64,000 bases of DNA from Psychromonas sp. psych-6C06 (lineage in GTDB: Bacteria > Pseudomonadota > Gammaproteobacteria > Enterobacterales > Psychromonadaceae). Position numbers and translations under genes: made by a program. The notes under the pieces are model-generated. The model saw only the letters and a list, made by a program, of their open reading frames with translations, was not told the origin of the DNA and did not search any database. Where the stretch lies: NCBI RefSeq assembly GCF_002835465.1, contig NZ_PIZM01000002.1, positions 610,398 through 674,397 of the forward strand. The letters are read 5' to 3'. Shown one piece after another: positions 42,839-58,314 of this stretch; position 1 is the stretch's first letter; the number at the start of each line of letters is the position of its first letter.

Positions 42839-43531
42839 GTGATAAAAATTAATAATTTATGTTTTTCGTGGGCGAATAAACCCATCATCGATATTCCTGA
42901 GCTTCTGATTAATCATGGTGAACACCTGTTTATTGAAGGGCCAAGTGGTTCTGGTAAAAGTACACTATTAAACTTATTGGCCGGTGTATTAATACCACAA
43001 GAAGGTGAAATAACTGTTTTAGATCAGCCTCTTAATAAGTTATCAGGCAGTGAAAAAGATAGCTTTAGAGCTAATCATATTGGCTTTATTTTTCAACAGT
43101 TTAATTTAATACCTTACCTCAGTGTTATTGATAACATCACCCTGCCCTGCTCATTTTCAAAATCTAGAAAAAACAAAGCGATCACCCGCAGTGGCAATTT
43201 AAAAAATGAAGCAATCCGTCTATTAAATGCATTAGGATTGGATGATAAGGAGCTGTTTCAACGTTCAGTCACTGAGTTAAGTGTCGGCCAGCAACAACGA
43301 GTGGCAGCAGCAAGAGCCATGTTAGGGTCACCTGATATTATTATTGCTGATGAGCCTACTTCTGCGTTGGACAATGAACATCGACAAGCATTCATTAAAA
43401 CACTGTTTATTGAATGTGAAAAAGAAAATATTACCCTCATTTTTGTTAGTCATGATAAAAGCCTAAAACAACATTTCAAGCACACGATTAACTTACCTGA
43501 AATAAATGCAATCATGATGGAGAACTTGTAA
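42839..43531 (+). CDS. ABC transporter ATP-binding protein (MacB/LolD type), zinc-linked
   Basis: 230-aa ATPase: Walker A GPSGSGKST (about residue 37), Q-loop FIFQQFNL, signature LSVGQQQR, Walker B IIIADEPTSALD, H-loop VSHD. GTG start at 42839 with AAAGG seven bases before. The stop overlaps the start of the permease gene (TAATG), so they are translated as a pair. The closest type is the LolD/MacB/FtsE group, which powers mechanotransmission rather than classic import. The Zur-like box upstream and the His-rich permease suggest a zinc role. Confidence 0.9.
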   Translation: MIKINNLCFSWANKPIIDIPELLINHGEHLFIEGPSGSGKSTLLNLLAGVLIPQEGEITVLDQPLNKLSGSEKDSFRANHIGFIFQQFNLIPYLSVIDNITLPCSFSKSRKNKAITRSGNLKNEAIRLLNALGLDDKELFQRSVTELSVGQQQRVAAARAMLGSPDIIIADEPTSALDNEHRQAFIKTLFIECEKENITLIFVSHDKSLKQHFKHTINLPEINAIMMENL

Positions 43532-45282
43532 TGGCTATTTTATCATTAGCGTTCAAGAGCTTATGGAACCGTAAACTCACATTTTTTATCACGCTTTTCT
43601 CGATAGCGATCAGTGTGACATTATTACTCGGCGTTCAGACATTAAAAGATGAAACAAAAACGAGTTTCATGAAAAGTATCTCTGGTACGGATCTCATTAT
43701 TGGTGCGCGTGGTGCATCATCACAGTTATTATTAAGCTCTGTTTTTCATATAGGTAATACGACCAACACTCTAAAATATAGCTCTTATGAACAGATAGCA
43801 AAATTACCTACTGTCGAGTGGGCAGTGCCAATCTCGCTCGGAGACTCGCACAAAGGTTATACAGTAATGGCTACTGATTTAAGCTTTTTTGAACATTATA
43901 GTTATGCCAATAAACAAAAGATTGCAATTCAAAAAGGAAAAATATCAACAGATATGTTTGCGGTTGCGATTGGTGCAGATGTTGCGAAAAAGCTCAACTA
44001 TAAAATTGGTGATAGCATTATCATGACCCATGGAGGAGGTGAAATTCATGGACATGATCATGATGATATCCCCTATTTTATTAGCGCCATTTTAAAGCCA
44101 ACCTTTACCGCTATTGATCAAACACTGATCATCTCATTAGAAGCAATGGAAGCAATGCATGCCGATGACCATGGGCATATAGGCGCGTTATCGCATGAGA
44201 CACACGCAAACCATGACGAGCACGAACATCATGAGTCACACGCAAACCATGACGATCATGAACACGAGCACCATGAATCACATGCAAGTCATGACGAACA
44301 CGAGCATCATGAATCACATGCAAGTCATGACGAACACGAACACGAGCATCATGAATCACACGCAAGTCATGACGAACACGAACACGCGCATCATGAATCA
44401 CACGCAAGTCATGACGAGCATGAACACGAGCATGAACACGAGCATCATGAATCACACGCAAACCATGACGAGAACGAACATCATGAGTCACACGCAAACC
44501 ATGACGAGCATGAACATGAGCACCATGAATCACACGCAAGTCATGACGAACACGAACACGAGCATAATGAATCACACGCAAGTCATGACGAGCATGAACA
44601 CGAGCATCATGAATCACACACAAGCCATGACGAGCACGAACACCATGAAACACATGCAAACCATGACGAGCACAAGCACCATCAAGACACACCAGAACAA
44701 AAGATTGCACGTTTACTAAAGTTAAAACCAGACAATATCAATGCGATTTTTGTCGGGCTTACCTCACGCCAATCAGTACTTGGCATGCAACGATATGTAA
44801 ACACTTTTCAAGCAGAGCCACTATCGGCGATCATGCCAGCAGTTGCACTTCAAGAGTTATGGCAATTCTTTAGCATTGCAGAAACGGCTTTAGATATCGT
44901 GACTATTTTTGTTGTTTTAGTTGGATTGCTAGGCATGCTGAGTATTATTTTGATGAGCCTAAATGAACGAAGAAGAGAGATGGCAATTTTACGCTCCGTA
45001 GGTGCTCGCCCAGCACATATATTTGCACTAATTATCGGTGAAGCAGGCTTTGTTTGTTTTGCTGGTATTATGCTTGGTATCGCGTTAATGTATTTCTTGC
45101 TATTAACGTTGCAAGCACCTTTAGCAACCTATTATGGCTTTTATCTTGATATCAATATGCTGACATCAAGCGATCTCTTTATTTTATTCATTATTCAGGC
45201 TAGTGCATTACTCATCGCATTAATTCCTGGTTTATTAATTTACAGGTACTCTTTGTCTGACGGCATGAGTATTAAATTTTAG
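43531..45282 (+). CDS. FtsX/MacB-type ABC permease with long histidine-rich repeat insert
   Basis: 583 aa. One membrane segment near the N-terminus (about 16-36), a periplasmic MacB-type core domain, then three C-terminal membrane segments (about 455-480, 500-530, 550-575) with the FtsX pattern SLNERRREMAILRSVGARP. A region of about 165 residues (221-385) in the periplasmic part consists of repeats such as HESHASHDEHEHEH, and is almost entirely His, Glu, Asp, Ser and Ala. A shorter GGGEIHGHDHDD lies just before. The insert should bind Zn or other divalent metals in the periplasm. It is coupled to the ATPase gene and followed after 8 bp by a DUF3299 gene. Confidence 0.9.
   Translation: MAILSLAFKSLWNRKLTFFITLFSIAISVTLLLGVQTLKDETKTSFMKSISGTDLIIGARGASSQLLLSSVFHIGNTTNTLKYSSYEQIAKLPTVEWAVPISLGDSHKGYTVMATDLSFFEHYSYANKQKIAIQKGKISTDMFAVAIGADVAKKLNYKIGDSIIMTHGGGEIHGHDHDDIPYFISAILKPTFTAIDQTLIISLEAMEAMHADDHGHIGALSHETHANHDEHEHHESHANHDDHEHEHHESHASHDEHEHHESHASHDEHEHEHHESHASHDEHEHAHHESHASHDEHEHEHEHEHHESHANHDENEHHESHANHDEHEHEHHESHASHDEHEHEHNESHASHDEHEHEHHESHTSHDEHEHHETHANHDEHKHHQDTPEQKIARLLKLKPDNINAIFVGLTSRQSVLGMQRYVNTFQAEPLSAIMPAVALQELWQFFSIAETALDIVTIFVVLVGLLGMLSIILMSLNERRREMAILRSVGARPAHIFALIIGEAGFVCFAGIMLGIALMYFLLLTLQAPLATYYGFYLDINMLTSSDLFILFIIQASALLIALIPGLLIYRYSLSDGMSIKF
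44191..44682 (+). repeat. In-frame His-rich tandem repeat inside the permease gene
   Basis: Degenerate tandem units of about 33-51 bp built on CATGAATCACACGCAAGTCATGACGAACACGAA-like blocks (split here as CATGAATCACACGCAAGT and CATGACGAACACGAA). All units are multiples of three, so the frame is kept. Unit lengths vary by HEHEH insertions, a pattern typical of slippage or unequal crossing-over. Long open frames on the other strand and in a second forward frame are by-products of the repeat. Confidence 0.9.
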
Positions 45283-53434: not shown

Positions 53435-53721
53435 TTACTTATAGTGCTGGCGTGCAAGAAAATGCACGGGTTAAATGGGCTGATGGCACTAATACCCTTA
53501 GATTCATCGAAGAAAGACAAAGCCCAATGTAAAAAACAGGACATGAACCATAAGTGCATATAAAGGTATCGTTGAGTACCAAACGAAAAGAATAATGAGG
53601 GATTTTTAGGCGTAGATAAGGCTTGAGGTAATACGCTAACTGCTTGATTAATTTATATAACTCCTAATACAACAAAGCCCCGAATCTATTATTACAAGAC
53701 ATCGATGCTTTATCATTTGTA

Positions 53722-53773
53722 TGGTACCGCTGGACGGACTTGAACCGTCACTTCTTTCGAAATCGGATTTTGA
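53722..53773 (-). repeat. 52-bp copy of the tRNA-Leu 3' half (attachment-site candidate)
   Basis: Identical over 52 bases to 57495-57546, that is, from the CCA end of tRNA-Leu(CAA) through the anticodon. Beyond 53773 the sequence departs completely. Such a copy in the same orientation is what a tRNA-targeting integrase leaves at the far end of an island. The rest of 53435-54037 has only short open fragments and the C/G hairpin. Confidence 0.7.
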
Positions 53774-53930: not shown

Positions 53931-53975
53931 ATATCCCCCCCCTCTTAACTATCACTTAATTGGGGGGGGGGGATA
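53931..53975. terminator. Poly-C/poly-G hairpin after phoH
   Basis: Eight C (53935-53942) face eleven G (53962-53972) across a 19-nt loop, flanked by ATAT and ATAAT. On the minus strand the hairpin lies about 65 bp past the PhoH stop and may terminate it. Homopolymers of this length are prone to slippage. Confidence 0.5.
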
Positions 53976-54037: not shown

Positions 54038-55417
54038 TTATAAATTCTCTTCTGCAAATGAAGCTAAGCGACTTCTTACAACACCATTAAGGTAAACATT
54101 TGCACTGCCTTCAAAAGCCTTAAAACGCTCGACAATATAAGTTAAACCTGAGGTGACAGGAGTTAAGTAATTACTGTCTATTTGCGCTAAATTGCCAGAA
54201 CATACAATTTTAGTTCCCTCCCCACATCGAGTAATGATCGTTTTTAGCTGTGATGCTGTTAAATTCTGGCACTCATCTAACAATACAAATGAGTTTTGGA
54301 TGCTACGTCCACGCATAAAATTAACCGATTTAAATTGAATGTTGGCTTTTTCCATAATGTAATCCAATGATCCATTCGGACACTCATCATTTTTATGCAA
54401 GACTTCCAATGTATCGGTAATCGCCGCCAACCAAGGCATCATCTTATCTTCTTCAGTGCCTGGTAAAAAACCAATTGATTCAGCGATTTCAGGCGTATTT
54501 CTAGTAACAATCACTTTGTCATAAATACCCTGTTCAATCACTAACTCAAGCGCAGTCGCCATGGCCAATAACGTTTTCCCACATCCAGCAGGCCCGGTCA
54601 GAATAACTAATTCAATGTCGGGATCAAGCAGTGCATCAATTGCCATCGCTTGGTAAATGTTCTTAGGTTGTACTCCCCAAGCACTGCAAGACATTAATTT
54701 ATCTCGCCCTAAATCCTGTAACCGAAGTACTCCGGCTTGTTCTGAGATGACTTTAGCCGCAAACTGCTTAGTCTCATCCAAGATATATTCATTACAATAA
54801 GTCCCTTCAATTAAGTTTGCATCCAAGTGATGAAAGGTATCTCGACCTTGAGTATCACTTTCACAATCTTCTACTTGGTCCCAAAAACTCCCATTTAAAC
54901 AGCGAAAACCTTTCGACAATAGTTGAATGTCGTCGATAAGCTGGTCTTTGCGGTAATCTTCGACATAATGCAGACCAGCCCCTTTAGCTTTCAAACGCAT
55001 ATTGATGTCTTTTGTCACCAGTATTACTTGTGTGCGCTCTTTAACTTGTTGTAAATATAAAGCCGAATTAATAATGCGATTATCCGGCTCGTCTTCGGTA
55101 AAAAACTCTTGGCTTATCGGCTGATGATGATCAGTAAAAATAGCAATTCGGCCAGACTTCTCAGTATTATCTGTATATAAAGGAACTCCTTGCGAAATAG
55201 CCTCTGGAGAAGCATCTTTGAAAATATCTTCTAGAGAACGAATCACAATTCGAGCATCTCGACTGACTTCTTTTTGCCTGTCTTTGATACGGTCTAACTC
55301 TTCTAAAACTGTCATTGGAATAACCACGTTATGCTCTTTAAAGGCGTAAATGGCGAGAGGATCATGTAGCAATATATTTGTATCTAGAATAAAAAACTTA
55401 CGATCTTCATTTCCCAT
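54038..55417 (-). CDS. PIN-PhoH family protein (PhoH2 type)
   Basis: 459 aa. The N-terminal PIN ribonuclease-like domain (FILDTNILLHDP, LEELD, VSRDARI, LVTKDINMRLKA) is fused to a PhoH ATPase domain (Walker A LTGPAGCGKTLLAMATAL; Walker B NSFVLLDECQNLT; sensor IVCSGNLAQID). Studied relatives unwind and cleave RNA. The gene is monocistronic. It lies between the putative attachment sites, but the protein is widespread in gammaproteobacteria, so it may be resident rather than cargo. Confidence 0.92.
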   Translation of the reverse strand: MGNEDRKFFILDTNILLHDPLAIYAFKEHNVVIPMTVLEELDRIKDRQKEVSRDARIVIRSLEDIFKDASPEAISQGVPLYTDNTEKSGRIAIFTDHHQPISQEFFTEDEPDNRIINSALYLQQVKERTQVILVTKDINMRLKAKGAGLHYVEDYRKDQLIDDIQLLSKGFRCLNGSFWDQVEDCESDTQGRDTFHHLDANLIEGTYCNEYILDETKQFAAKVISEQAGVLRLQDLGRDKLMSCSAWGVQPKNIYQAMAIDALLDPDIELVILTGPAGCGKTLLAMATALELVIEQGIYDKVIVTRNTPEIAESIGFLPGTEEDKMMPWLAAITDTLEVLHKNDECPNGSLDYIMEKANIQFKSVNFMRGRSIQNSFVLLDECQNLTASQLKTIITRCGEGTKIVCSGNLAQIDSNYLTPVTSGLTYIVERFKAFEGSANVYLNGVVRSRLASFAEENL

Positions 55418-55586: not shown

Positions 55587-55808
55587 TCAAATGTTTATTC
55601 CATCGGAAAAATTTAGGACCAATAATTTAGGTGAACTTTTAATTATTGGGTTGATAATTAATAATTGTTTGGTGCTTTCTTCTGTATAAAAAGAAATAAG
55701 GTTATCTGTTAATTTTTGATATGGTTTTACAATACTCCCCTCTTTACCACTTTTGGTTTTGATGGTTTGCATATTATATAAATCTACATCGCGCATTAAC
55801 GATTCCAT
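55587..55808 (-). CDS. Hypothetical ORF after the integrase
   Basis: 73-aa ORF overlapping the last 35 bp of the integrase remnant in another frame. It is soluble, with no motif recognised. It could be a small element gene or chance reading. Confidence 0.3.
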   Translation of the reverse strand: MESLMRDVDLYNMQTIKTKSGKEGSIVKPYQKLTDNLISFYTEESTKQLLIINPIIKSSPKLLVLNFSDGINI

Positions 55809-56778
55809 TGAATACCCTATCTGTTAAGTTTGCTTTATTCTCAGTGCAAAGGTGACTATACCTTTGTGTCATTGTTATCGACTTATGCCCTAATACTTCT
55901 GCTATTTCAAGCAAGCTAGCGCAGGTATGGCGTAAGTCATGAAACCTGAAATCACGAATGATTGCTTCATTTAAAGCCCCACTGCCAGTGAATATCAAAA
56001 TTCTTAAAATATCTTTTCTGGTCATTGGGATGTGGAAAAACGAAGCCACCAATTTTCGTATATTTAATTAATTCAGTAACAACATCACTGGTAAGAGTTA
56101 ATATACGTTGCTCACCATTCTTGGTTTTAGGGAGATATGCAGTTTTTGTTTTAAAATTAATATCCCCCCATGTAAGTGAAGTTATTTCAGTACGCCTTGC
56201 ACCTGTAGTCACAACCATCAAAACTAATAAATACAATTGTTCCCAATTGGATTTCTTTACTGCTTGAAATAAACGATGTAACTCCTCACTGCTCAAAAAA
56301 CGAGTGTGAGCATTATTTTCTGTATATTGCTTGATGCCTTTGACAGGATTGTAATCAACGTCGAATTCATGAAGTAAGAAGCTATATAGGGAGCCAATTG
56401 ATGATTTATAGCGGTTTAAGGTCGCAGGGGCTTTATCCAACGATAACAACTTCAGTTCAGCTTTAATTTGCTGACGAGTTACTTTGCCGACGGGTTTATC
56501 TGCAAAGACAGACACCCAATGTAACAATCGCTGTTGCTTACTTGGATCTTTACCAACACCTTGATCTAAAAACTGCTTTGCAGCATCAGAAAAAGCTAAG
56601 GAAGTTAACGTATGATTAGTTAAAGAATGCGCAAAATCATTATCCACCAGCAGTAAAGCTCGGAATTTTTCAGCTTCTTTTTTTATTTTGAAAGATTTAG
56701 ATATTCGATTGCCATCGCGCATGAATTCAACACGATAAGTAGTAGTTTTTTGCCCTTTCGTACTTGTAGAGTTTCCAT
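55774..56778 (-). pseudogene. Tyrosine recombinase (phage-type integrase), broken
   Basis: Frame one (to 55967) carries the N-terminal SAM-like domain and the first half of the catalytic domain, with Arg in VTTGARRTEITSLTW. Frame two (to 55774) carries HDLRHTCASLL, EVLGHKSITMTQRYSHL with the remaining His/Arg and the Tyr nucleophile. The frames meet near 55985 at CAGTGGGGCTTT. About eight residues normally between CAS and LLEIAEVLGH are also missing. A good RBS and ATG at 56778 are out of frame with the body, which can be rejoined at the A-run near 56740. It is inactive as written. It lies beside the tRNA-Leu repeats. Confidence 0.85.
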
Positions 56779-56788
56779 TTTATTTCCT

Positions 56789-56818
56789 TTACGCCAAATT
56801 ACGCCAAATTACGCCAAA
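56789..56818. repeat. Three tandem copies of TTACGCCAAA
   Basis: TTACGCCAAA occurs three times in direct tandem (56789, 56799, 56809), just upstream of the integrase start. This is the usual place for recombinase arm sites or for operator repeats of an excisionase/regulator. Confidence 0.55.
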
Positions 56819-56899
56819 AACGTAACCGAGTATCAGGAAAACAAAACCAGACTGACTTTTTCTTTCTCTTAACTAGTTGACTAAACTATATAAAATATT

Positions 56900-57494
56900 T
56901 GGTACCGCTGGACAAACTTGAACCATCACTTCTTTCGGATATTTTGAGGTATAGAGATTTTGAGCGGTGTTAGAAAGACAAAAGGCCTAAGTCATTCCTG
57001 ACTTAGCCCTATCAAATTTGGTACCGCTGGACGGACTTGAACCGTCACTTCTTTCGCATATTTTGAGGTATAGAGATTTTGAGTGGTGTTAGAAAGCAAA
57101 AAGGCCTAAGTCATTTCTGACTTAGGCCTTTTAAATTTGGTACCGCTGGACAGACTTGAACCGTCACTTCTTTCGCATATTTTGAGGTATAGAGATTTTG
57201 AGCGGTGTTAGAAAGACAAAAGGGCTAAGTCATTCCTGACTTAGCCCTATCAAATTTGGTACCGCTGGACGGACTTGAACCGTCACTTCTTTCGCATATT
57301 TTGAGGTATAGCGATTTTGAGCGGTGTTAGAAAGACAAAAGGGCTAAGTCATTCCTGACTTAGCCCTATCAAATTTGGTACCGCTGGACGGACTTGAACC
57401 GTCACTTCTTTCGCATATTTTGAGGTATAGAGATTTTGAGTGGTGTTAGAAAGCAAAAAGGCCTAAGTCATTTCTGACTTAGGCCTTTTAAATT
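56900..57494 (-). repeat. Five 119-bp tandem repeats carrying tRNA-Leu 3' ends and terminator hairpins
   Basis: Units start at 56900, 57019, 57138, 57257 and 57376, each exactly 119 bp, and the array abuts the intact tRNA-Leu. Read on the minus strand each unit has a hairpin with T-run (GGCCTAAGTCA/TGACTTAGGCC or GGGCTAAGTCA/TGACTTAGCCC), about 45 nt of spacer, then the last ~38 nt of the tRNA (variable-arm end, T-arm, acceptor 3' strand, CCA). The hairpin changes between units are compensatory. In three units ACCGCT in the spacer could pair with AGCGGT, giving a tRNA-like acceptor stem. Unit 1 is the most diverged. Confidence 0.92.
57455..57490 (-). terminator. Terminator of tRNA-Leu (first hairpin of the array)
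   Basis: AAGGCCTAAGTCA and TGACTTAGGCCTT form a 13-bp perfect stem with a 4-nt loop; on the minus strand TTTTT follows. It begins 8 bases past the tRNA CCA end. Confidence 0.85.
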
Positions 57495-57579
57495 TGGTAC
57501 CGCTGGACGGACTTGAACCGTCACTTCTTTCGAAATCGGATTTTGAATCCGACGTGTCTACCAATTCCACCACAGCGGC
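57495..57579 (-). tRNA. tRNA-Leu (anticodon CAA)
   Basis: 85 nt including an encoded CCA. The acceptor stem is GCCGCTG/CAGCGGT (first pair G-U). The D-arm has GGTGGAATTGGTAGACAC, the anticodon loop TTCAAAA gives CAA (reads UUG), the variable arm is the long class-II type, and the T-arm is GACGG-TTCAAGT-CCGTC. It is the parent of the 3' fragments in the adjacent array and at 53722. Confidence 0.96.
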
Positions 57580-57759
57580 ATTAGATAGGCTAAAGTAACT
57601 AGCTTCTCATTAAGTGGCGTTGATTATACTCATCAAAGAATTACAAACAAGTATTTTTAAGCTCACCATCACTAAATGCTCAAAAAGTCAGCGCTAGGCC
57701 TAGTTATAATTTTGCTACAAAATGCTACACTGCGATCTTCTATTTTCAAAGGAACCATC

Positions 57760-58314
57760 ATGGCTAAGCGTAATCAGAAAAAAGTATCAAAACTTACTAT
57801 TCAAGAGCAATATCAAAGTTGTCCTCGTGCGAACCTATTTAAACGATTAGGTGCCTATATCTATGATTTATTTGCATTAGCAGCGGTACTGATGTTCTCT
57901 GTTATTTTTGCACTATTAGTGGTAATTATATTTAATAATATGGGCTTAATTAATCTTGATGCCTATAAAGATATTGCAGACTATTTATCACAGAGTTCCG
58001 CATTTGCAGTGTATTTAGCAATGGTGATTATTGGTTTTTATGCATATTTTTGGACCAAAGGTGGACAAACTATTGGTATGAAAGCATGGCGTTTACGAGT
58101 TCAAAATAGTGATGGTAGTAACATCAGTTTTACGCAAGCGTTAATTCGACTAGCGACTTCCGCTTTTGGATTAGGGAATATTATGGCTCTTTTAAAAAAC
58201 CGCAATGCATTTCAAGATTTATGGGCCGAGTGCGAAGTGATTGTGCTAACCAAAGAGCTAAGCTCATGGAAAGGGTTTAAAGGTATGGGATTTATGGACG
58301 AAGATAAGAAATAA
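57760..58314 (+). CDS. RDD family membrane protein
   Basis: 184 aa from the ATG at 57760, which has AAAGGA upstream; the frame is open further back but without RBS. The RDD domain has RANLFKRLGAYIYDLFALAAVLMFSVIFA (Arg and Asp of the name), a second segment FAVYLAMVIIGFYAYFWTKGGQTIGMKAWRLRV, and a third near TSAFGLGNIMALL. Function of the family is unsettled; some members are Na+/H+ antiporters. It is closed by a hairpin convergent with lptG. Confidence 0.85.
   Translation: MAKRNQKKVSKLTIQEQYQSCPRANLFKRLGAYIYDLFALAAVLMFSVIFALLVVIIFNNMGLINLDAYKDIADYLSQSSAFAVYLAMVIIGFYAYFWTKGGQTIGMKAWRLRVQNSDGSNISFTQALIRLATSAFGLGNIMALLKNRNAFQDLWAECEVIVLTKELSSWKGFKGMGFMDEDKK

Follow-up and report, generated by a model that had tools for sequence, protein, structure and literature searches.

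The window, that is, the whole 64,000-nucleotide stretch of Psychromonas sp. psych-6C06 DNA analysed here, carries on its minus strand an intact tRNA-Leu(CAA) gene, followed by a tandem array, an integrase island, a distal copy of the 3' part of the tRNA and an old chromosomal terminator. Each unit of the array consists, in this order, of a terminator hairpin, a spacer of approximately 27 nt (S) and the final 38 nt of the tRNA (the tail). The features are listed below.

57495..57579, minus strand: intact tRNA-Leu(CAA) (ARAGORN; Rfam RF00005, 59.9 bits)
57376..57494, minus strand: unit 1, haplotype A hairpin 57489-57456, S 57414-57440, tail copy 57376-57413; same sequence as unit 4
57257..57375, minus strand: unit 2, haplotype B hairpin 57367-57340, S 57295-57321, tail copy 57257-57294
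57138..57256, minus strand: unit 3, haplotype B hairpin 57248-57221, S 57176-57202, tail copy 57138-57175 (one mismatch)
57019..57137, minus strand: unit 4, haplotype A hairpin 57132-57099, S 57057-57083, tail copy 57019-57056; same sequence as unit 1
56900..57018, minus strand: unit 5, haplotype B' hairpin (core stem 57006-56987; G-G mismatch), S 56938-56964, tail copy 56900-56937 with 3 mismatches
56760..56899, minus strand: island left end, alignable with the islands directly behind tRNA-Leu(CAA) in four relatives (G005, G006, G011, G019)
56789-56818, in the island left end, before the integrase: three tandem 10-bp direct repeats TTTGGCGTAA (TRF)
55774..56722, minus strand: tyrosine integrase broken into two parts that lie in different frames (55967-56722, Pfam Phage_integrase 8.5e-13, and 55774-56052, 6.3e-08)
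54038..55417, minus strand: PIN-PhoH gene, between the integrase and the distal copy (Pfam PhoH 1.2e-47, PIN_4 2e-33)
53722..53773, minus strand: 52-bp distal copy of the 3' part of the tRNA, on the island's attR side; no difference from the tRNA from the anticodon loop onward
53664..53721, minus strand: old chromosomal terminator and flank, homologous to the sequence after the tail copy in P. marina

The interval 57494-56900, 3' of the tRNA, was filled exactly by five units of 119 bp arranged head to tail. TRF reported a period of 119 over 56897-57532, with 5.3 copies, 94% matches and a score of 1118. The tail copies started at 57413, 57294, 57175, 57056 and 56937, a spacing of exactly 119, with 0, 0, 1, 0 and 3 mismatches in units 1 to 5, and the tail copy of unit 5 directly abutted the island left end. 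Units 1 and 4 were identical over 119 bp, and the remaining pairs differed at 2-11 of 119 bases, with 13 variable sites overall, counted in the register of an earlier note on this DNA (unit 1 = 57494-57376, and so on) and without the tail of the tRNA itself. The five exact 119-bp repeats described in that note were exact in their period, and units 1 and 4 in their sequence, but the other pairs were not. Its account of a terminator hairpin and the last ~38 nt of the tRNA in each unit was borne out by the tail copies and by a terminator scan. The variable sites of hairpin and spacer were linked, and defined two haplotypes in the array order A-B-B-A-B'.

Behind the tyrT tRNA gene of E. coli, the locus of rtT RNA, lie tandem units of ~178 bp that contain the tRNA 3' end. 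The analogy with this locus drawn in the earlier note was fair as regards anatomy: tandem repeats with the tRNA 3' end, as in rtT-type loci, were present here according to both TRF and the tail copies. The two loci differ in the tRNA, the sequence and the unit length (119 versus ~178 bp), the RtT model was not among the Rfam matches at E <= 10, and each unit of the Psychromonas array holds an intrinsic-terminator-like hairpin.

Elsewhere in the window, the plus-strand ORF 43531-45282 specifies a 583-aa protein that by eye resembles an ABC transporter permease and has a His-rich loop (HANHDEHEHHESH and similar), for which a long imperfect repeat at 44194-44682 codes; a 193-aa ORF is open on the opposite strand. 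That the His-rich loop binds metal is a guess.

The integrase island and the distal tRNA copy

The 3.1-kb segment from 56899 to 53774 had a tRNA 3' fragment at both ends, oriented as the tRNA, and its tyrosine integrase adjoined the tRNA-side end. The integrase reading frame was not intact, being split over two frames, and the segment is an integrase island that is now decayed rather than an active element. The integrase, the distal tail copy (an exact 38-nt copy at 53759-53722, within the 52-bp block 53773-53722) and the island context had been overlooked in the earlier note. The integrase pieces were 71-75% identical to the integrases of the compared islands, and the island left end plus integrase was 72.7% identical over 1184 nt to the G006 island. 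The same kind of left end was present directly behind tRNA-Leu(CAA) in at least 6 of the 24 genus genomes (G003, G005, G006, G011, G019 and G022); in the window, that left end was placed behind the fifth array copy instead of behind the tRNA.

The distal copies in relatives consisted of the island end, a GATTCAAAATCCG-like start, the tRNA tail and a terminator. In the window, the flank at the old terminator was compared with that of P. marina and scored 138 after the CCA, which was equalled by 0 of 500 shuffles (maximum 53). S is found left of the fifth copy, and beyond the distal copy, to its right, come the old terminator and flank; the last S-tail junction is therefore interrupted by the island. 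Judging from the sequences on either side, the crossover point could lie anywhere from the shared CGAAAGAAGTGA rightward.

A small ORF was also present between the last array copy and the distal copy. The PIN-PhoH gene is likely to be either island cargo or a separate insertion, and may be island cargo. Full-length homologues of it (71-72%) were present in 9 of the other 23 genus genomes, never on the contig that bears tRNA-Leu(CAA), and G012 additionally had one in two pieces. Just a 34-35% match, over the PhoH half, was seen in P. marina, P. hadalis and Psychromonas sp. Urea-02u-13. Behind the PhoH gene (53935-53972), the minus strand reads 11 C (53972-53962) and 8 G (53942-53935) around a short loop, an unusual poly-C/poly-G hairpin.

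The 10-bp repeats TTTGGCGTAA were seen in about two copies in four related islands, and four of five right ends also showed two; they are possible integrase arm sites. At the island right ends (L048, L055, L064, L065, L067), the ~80 bases that precede the distal tRNA copy (near position 1500 of these loci) contained a promoter-like sequence directed outward across the att core. It read TTGAAA-N17-TATACT in L048 and TTGAAA with TAAACT or TACACT in L055 and L064, and was weaker in L065 and L067. In an excised island circle, this sequence would read into the integrase gene; integrase promoters across att are described in passages of PMC2951348.

Relatives with S and tail

By similarity search, S plus tail was present in 4 of 24 genus genomes, namely the window, P. 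marina, P. hadalis and Psychromonas sp. Urea-02u-13; 19 of the 24 genomes gave a match, which outside these four covered the query only from base 28 on, the tail. Of 394 genomes of the order, 4 contained the exact S pattern, all of them Psychromonas, and a profile of S plus the tail start, for which the five window S sequences were entered as four distinct ones, gave 9 strong hits in 4 of 60 relatives, with the next hit at E 0.006 (stricter filters). Both the pattern and the profile were built from these same copies, and more diverged copies may escape them. A tree of LptG placed the four species with S and tail on one side of a branch with a support of 94/92 and paired the window with P. marina (88/74); as a single-gene tree covering 23 of the 24 genomes (G012 had no LptG match), it is a modest one.

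The minimal state was that of P. marina, in which the tRNA is followed by a hairpin, S, a tail copy and the old terminator, forming one unit of 138 bp with a different hairpin. In Urea-02u-13, two tails lay 119 bp apart and the hairpin resembled haplotype A. At least two S-tail junctions were present in P. hadalis, on two contigs, and the assembly breaks there; the second junction was on a contig other than that of the tRNA and was followed by the old terminator. The window and Urea-02u-13 thus share the hairpin type and the 119-bp period, despite the pairing of the window with P. marina in the tree; a multi-unit ancestor or exchange would account for this.

Two further observations were made at this tRNA. 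In P. ossibalaenae (L165, minus strand), a hairpin terminator lies behind tRNA-Leu(CAA), and a worn copy of the tRNA tail with an island-type right end is located ~3.2 kb downstream, which is another eroded island at this tRNA. In L164 (G022), near position 1000, the tRNA-Leu(CAA) before the island has GGTTAAGTCC where the others have GGTTCAAGTCC; it is one base short in the T-loop, and the distal copy of the same genome (L048) has the full form.

Hairpins, folds and conservation

The co-changing hairpin stem had been taken in the earlier note as a sign that the fold is kept. The stem swap (C-G to G-C) was indeed compensated in four of the five units, and the hairpin behind the intact tRNA in Urea-02u-13 was homologous and fully paired, with an extra double change (G-C to U-A). 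However, unit 5 (B') had the A-type base on one side of the stem only, which produces its G-G mismatch, and the second hairpin of Urea-02u-13 was broken. The predicted energy of the unit 5 hairpin was -16.5 kcal/mol, versus -20.9 and -23.5 kcal/mol for the other types in the window. Among five distinct hairpins (three of the window and two of Urea-02u-13, those of P. marina and P. hadalis being omitted as unlike), covariation was not above shuffles, with double changes at 2 of 15 pairs, a count reached by 204 of 500 shuffles. The swap is one linked pair change that divides the two haplotypes and is common to the copies, and does not amount to repeated covariation.

Nine terminator-like sites were found in a scan of 56700-57800, against a shuffle mean of 0.8; five of them were the array hairpins, which lie on the minus strand, and the remaining four, on the plus strand, were T-arms. 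A consensus scan for sigma-70-like promoters gave none inside the array and two hits in all (1.7 expected), one of which (56869-56896) lies on the plus strand just outside the array, to which it is antisense. S as a promoter was rejected, the array having no consensus site. With no promoter-like site inside the array and a hairpin before each later unit, transcription of the later units would need read-through of the hairpins. Six S-tail sequences from four species (the fold and tail comparison omitted had1, the P. hadalis copy truncated at a contig end) had no shared fold beyond the T-arm, whose five pairs were retained in 5 of the 6 aligned sequences, some as G-U. The tRNA was the only match at the Rfam gathering score in the whole window. 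Rfam contains an RtT model, and this was absent among the 15 Rfam matches at E <= 10 in 56700-57700.

Fourfold sites of LptG, calculated for 8 named relatives, were saturated among the four species (identity 0.36-0.45). The S identity was 28/29 between the window and P. marina, and 17/28 to 22/28 (or 22/29) for the other between-species pairs. The region upstream of the tRNA, promoter included, was 0.61-0.77 identical among species, so that only the window-P. marina pair stands out for S. Strong purifying selection on S was dropped as an explanation because, outside this pair, S is about as conserved as the upstream region. Many columns of S and of part of the tail were invariant, including ten bases near the tail start (AAAGAAGTGA) that were invariant in the copies, P. 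hadalis included. As the P. hadalis tRNA differs by one base in AAAGAAGTGA, this invariance is not simply conversion from the tRNA.

Origin of the array

The array is best explained as the relic of an old att-flanked insertion at tRNA-Leu(CAA) that was amplified, and the last copy of which then became the attB of the island; we give this reading a probability of roughly 0.55. The observations behind it are the att-like layout, the distribution within one clade among the searched genomes, and an S that is undetectable after the old terminator. The order tail, hairpin, S, tail and old terminator is the one that an insertion at a tRNA att site would produce. In the ancestor of the four Psychromonas species, a segment of terminator, S and tRNA tail would have come between the tRNA and the old terminator, laid out as an att-flanked element with a lost interior and presumably made by an integrase. 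In the lineage of the window, the 119-bp unit was probably multiplied to five by recombination between repeats, as suggested by the A-B-B-A-B' mosaic with its identical A units. By its position, the first hairpin would terminate tRNA-Leu transcription, and the later hairpins would be mostly redundant behind it. Finally, as the junctions show, the last tail copy served as landing site for an island of a type that elsewhere lies directly behind this tRNA.

The 119-bp units contain no gene and have a tRNA fragment at both borders, and S was undetected in the flank, yet S matches no compared island end. S was unlike the five compared island right ends and the hairpin was unlike the four left ends. 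S as a decayed right end of a Psychromonas island was rejected, since its scores were below the shuffled mean in four of five comparisons and at the mean in the fifth; the hairpin as an island left end was likewise rejected, with 3 of 3 hairpins near the shuffled mean. S as part of the tRNA anticodon region was a weak candidate (scores reached by 4-53 of 500 shuffles), and S as chromosome flank was undetectable in the flank after the old terminator. A larger element ending in S was sought with exact patterns in the 394 order genomes and viral contigs, and with one unit against phages and plasmids, and none was found: the S pattern had 0 hits in the viral contigs, the exact tail-plus-hairpin pattern had 0 hits in the genome collection (which may omit the window's own or a very near genome), and one unit had no match among plasmids. 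Among the 19 phage records matched by one unit, the best 10 match the query only in its tail portion (positions 1-44 or 9-39), with at most 37% covered. Along with these negative results, further points count against an amplified att relic: the tail copies of the window begin at the variable arm (38 nt) and those of the islands at the anticodon loop, S and tail have invariant columns which a dead relic need not have, and the grouping of the window with Urea-02u-13 by hairpin type and period conflicts with the LptG pairing.

The array might instead have arisen by plain tandem duplication, in which slippage copied the tRNA 3' half, the terminator and the downstream spacer, and unequal crossing-over expanded the copies with no integrase involved. 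The period of exactly 119 in both the window and Urea-02u-13 is in keeping with this, unequal exchange is expected to yield a two-haplotype mosaic like this one, in which both A units are identical, and the first P. hadalis hairpin resembles, by eye, a copy of the old terminator. Such a duplication predicts S after the last old terminator, where it was undetected in P. marina, P. hadalis and the window: when S alone was compared with each species' own flank, 490, 284 and 76 of 500 shuffles, respectively, scored as high, and 36 of 500 did so in the best cross-species comparison, that of P. marina S with the flank in the window. Strong divergence of the flank could, however, mask S, and as S resembles no compared island end, slippage remains a real, if unlikely, rival. 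It is improbable, by our estimate, that each unit of 119-138 bp is a minimal non-autonomous integrative element composed solely of an att core, S as its right arm, and a terminator of its own. If it were, it would be a mini-element moved by an integrase in trans and stacking in tandem behind tRNA-Leu, harmlessly because every copy restores the tRNA tail and terminator, and giving islands spare landing sites.

The earlier note had suggested that the units could be a source of tRNA-like small RNAs. Read-through of the tRNA and processing would then free S-tail-hairpin RNAs, and these might sequester T-arm enzymes or other RNAs, as sponges or decoys. The retained T-arm pairs, the presence of S in four species and its near identity between the window and P. 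marina are compatible with such RNAs, and there is a precedent in E. coli, where the 3' external transcribed spacer of the leuZ tRNA precursor acts as a sponge of sRNAs. Here too the sequence lies directly behind a leucine tRNA and is possibly transcribed; in contrast to leuZ, S is located behind the terminator hairpin and not between the tRNA and its terminator. Against this role stand the hairpin before every later unit, the lack of a promoter-like site in the array, of a common fold past the T-arm and of an RtT match, the mismatched or broken hairpins of the pseudo-copies in one window unit and in Urea-02u-13, and a conservation of S that, the window-P. marina pair excepted, only equals that of the region upstream of the tRNA. 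The sequence thus lends the small-RNA proposal no support, and we consider it quite improbable. Very improbable is the idea that the hairpins are serial terminators kept by selection, insulating the genes behind a very active tRNA: the five have predicted energies of -16.5 to -23.5 kcal/mol, but in P. marina the old terminator is preceded by just one unit of this kind, Urea-02u-13 has a decayed second hairpin, and the other relatives have one hairpin within 80 bases behind the tail.

Passages of PMC4383910 describe how islands leave displaced tRNA 3' fragments on the same strand as the intact tRNA, state that tandem fragment arrays occur, and note that the Islander software discards candidates under 2 kb; tRNA fragments also figure in parts of PMC9897764. 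The present locus has the arrangement of an intact tRNA with displaced 3' fragments, an integrase island between two of them and a tandem array in common with the Islander-type tDNA fragments in those passages of PMC4383910, and differs from them in fragment intervals that are 81 bp, gene-free and repeated five times over. In the open-access literature, no paper was found on rtT with tyrT or on Psychromonas islands at tRNA-Leu, and none of the titles listed for broader topics named such an array.

An amplified att relic is the most likely origin of the array, and what is new lies in its compactness and in its re-use by an island; the kind itself is ordinary. Fragments of tRNA 3' ends are the standard footprint of mobile DNA. 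In this case, the footprint would have been turned into a short tandem repeat with its own terminators, common to four species, and re-used as an island landing site. This makes it testable whether tRNA tail repeats, those of the tyrT type included, begin as att relics, and whether spare tail copies divert integration from the real tRNA gene.
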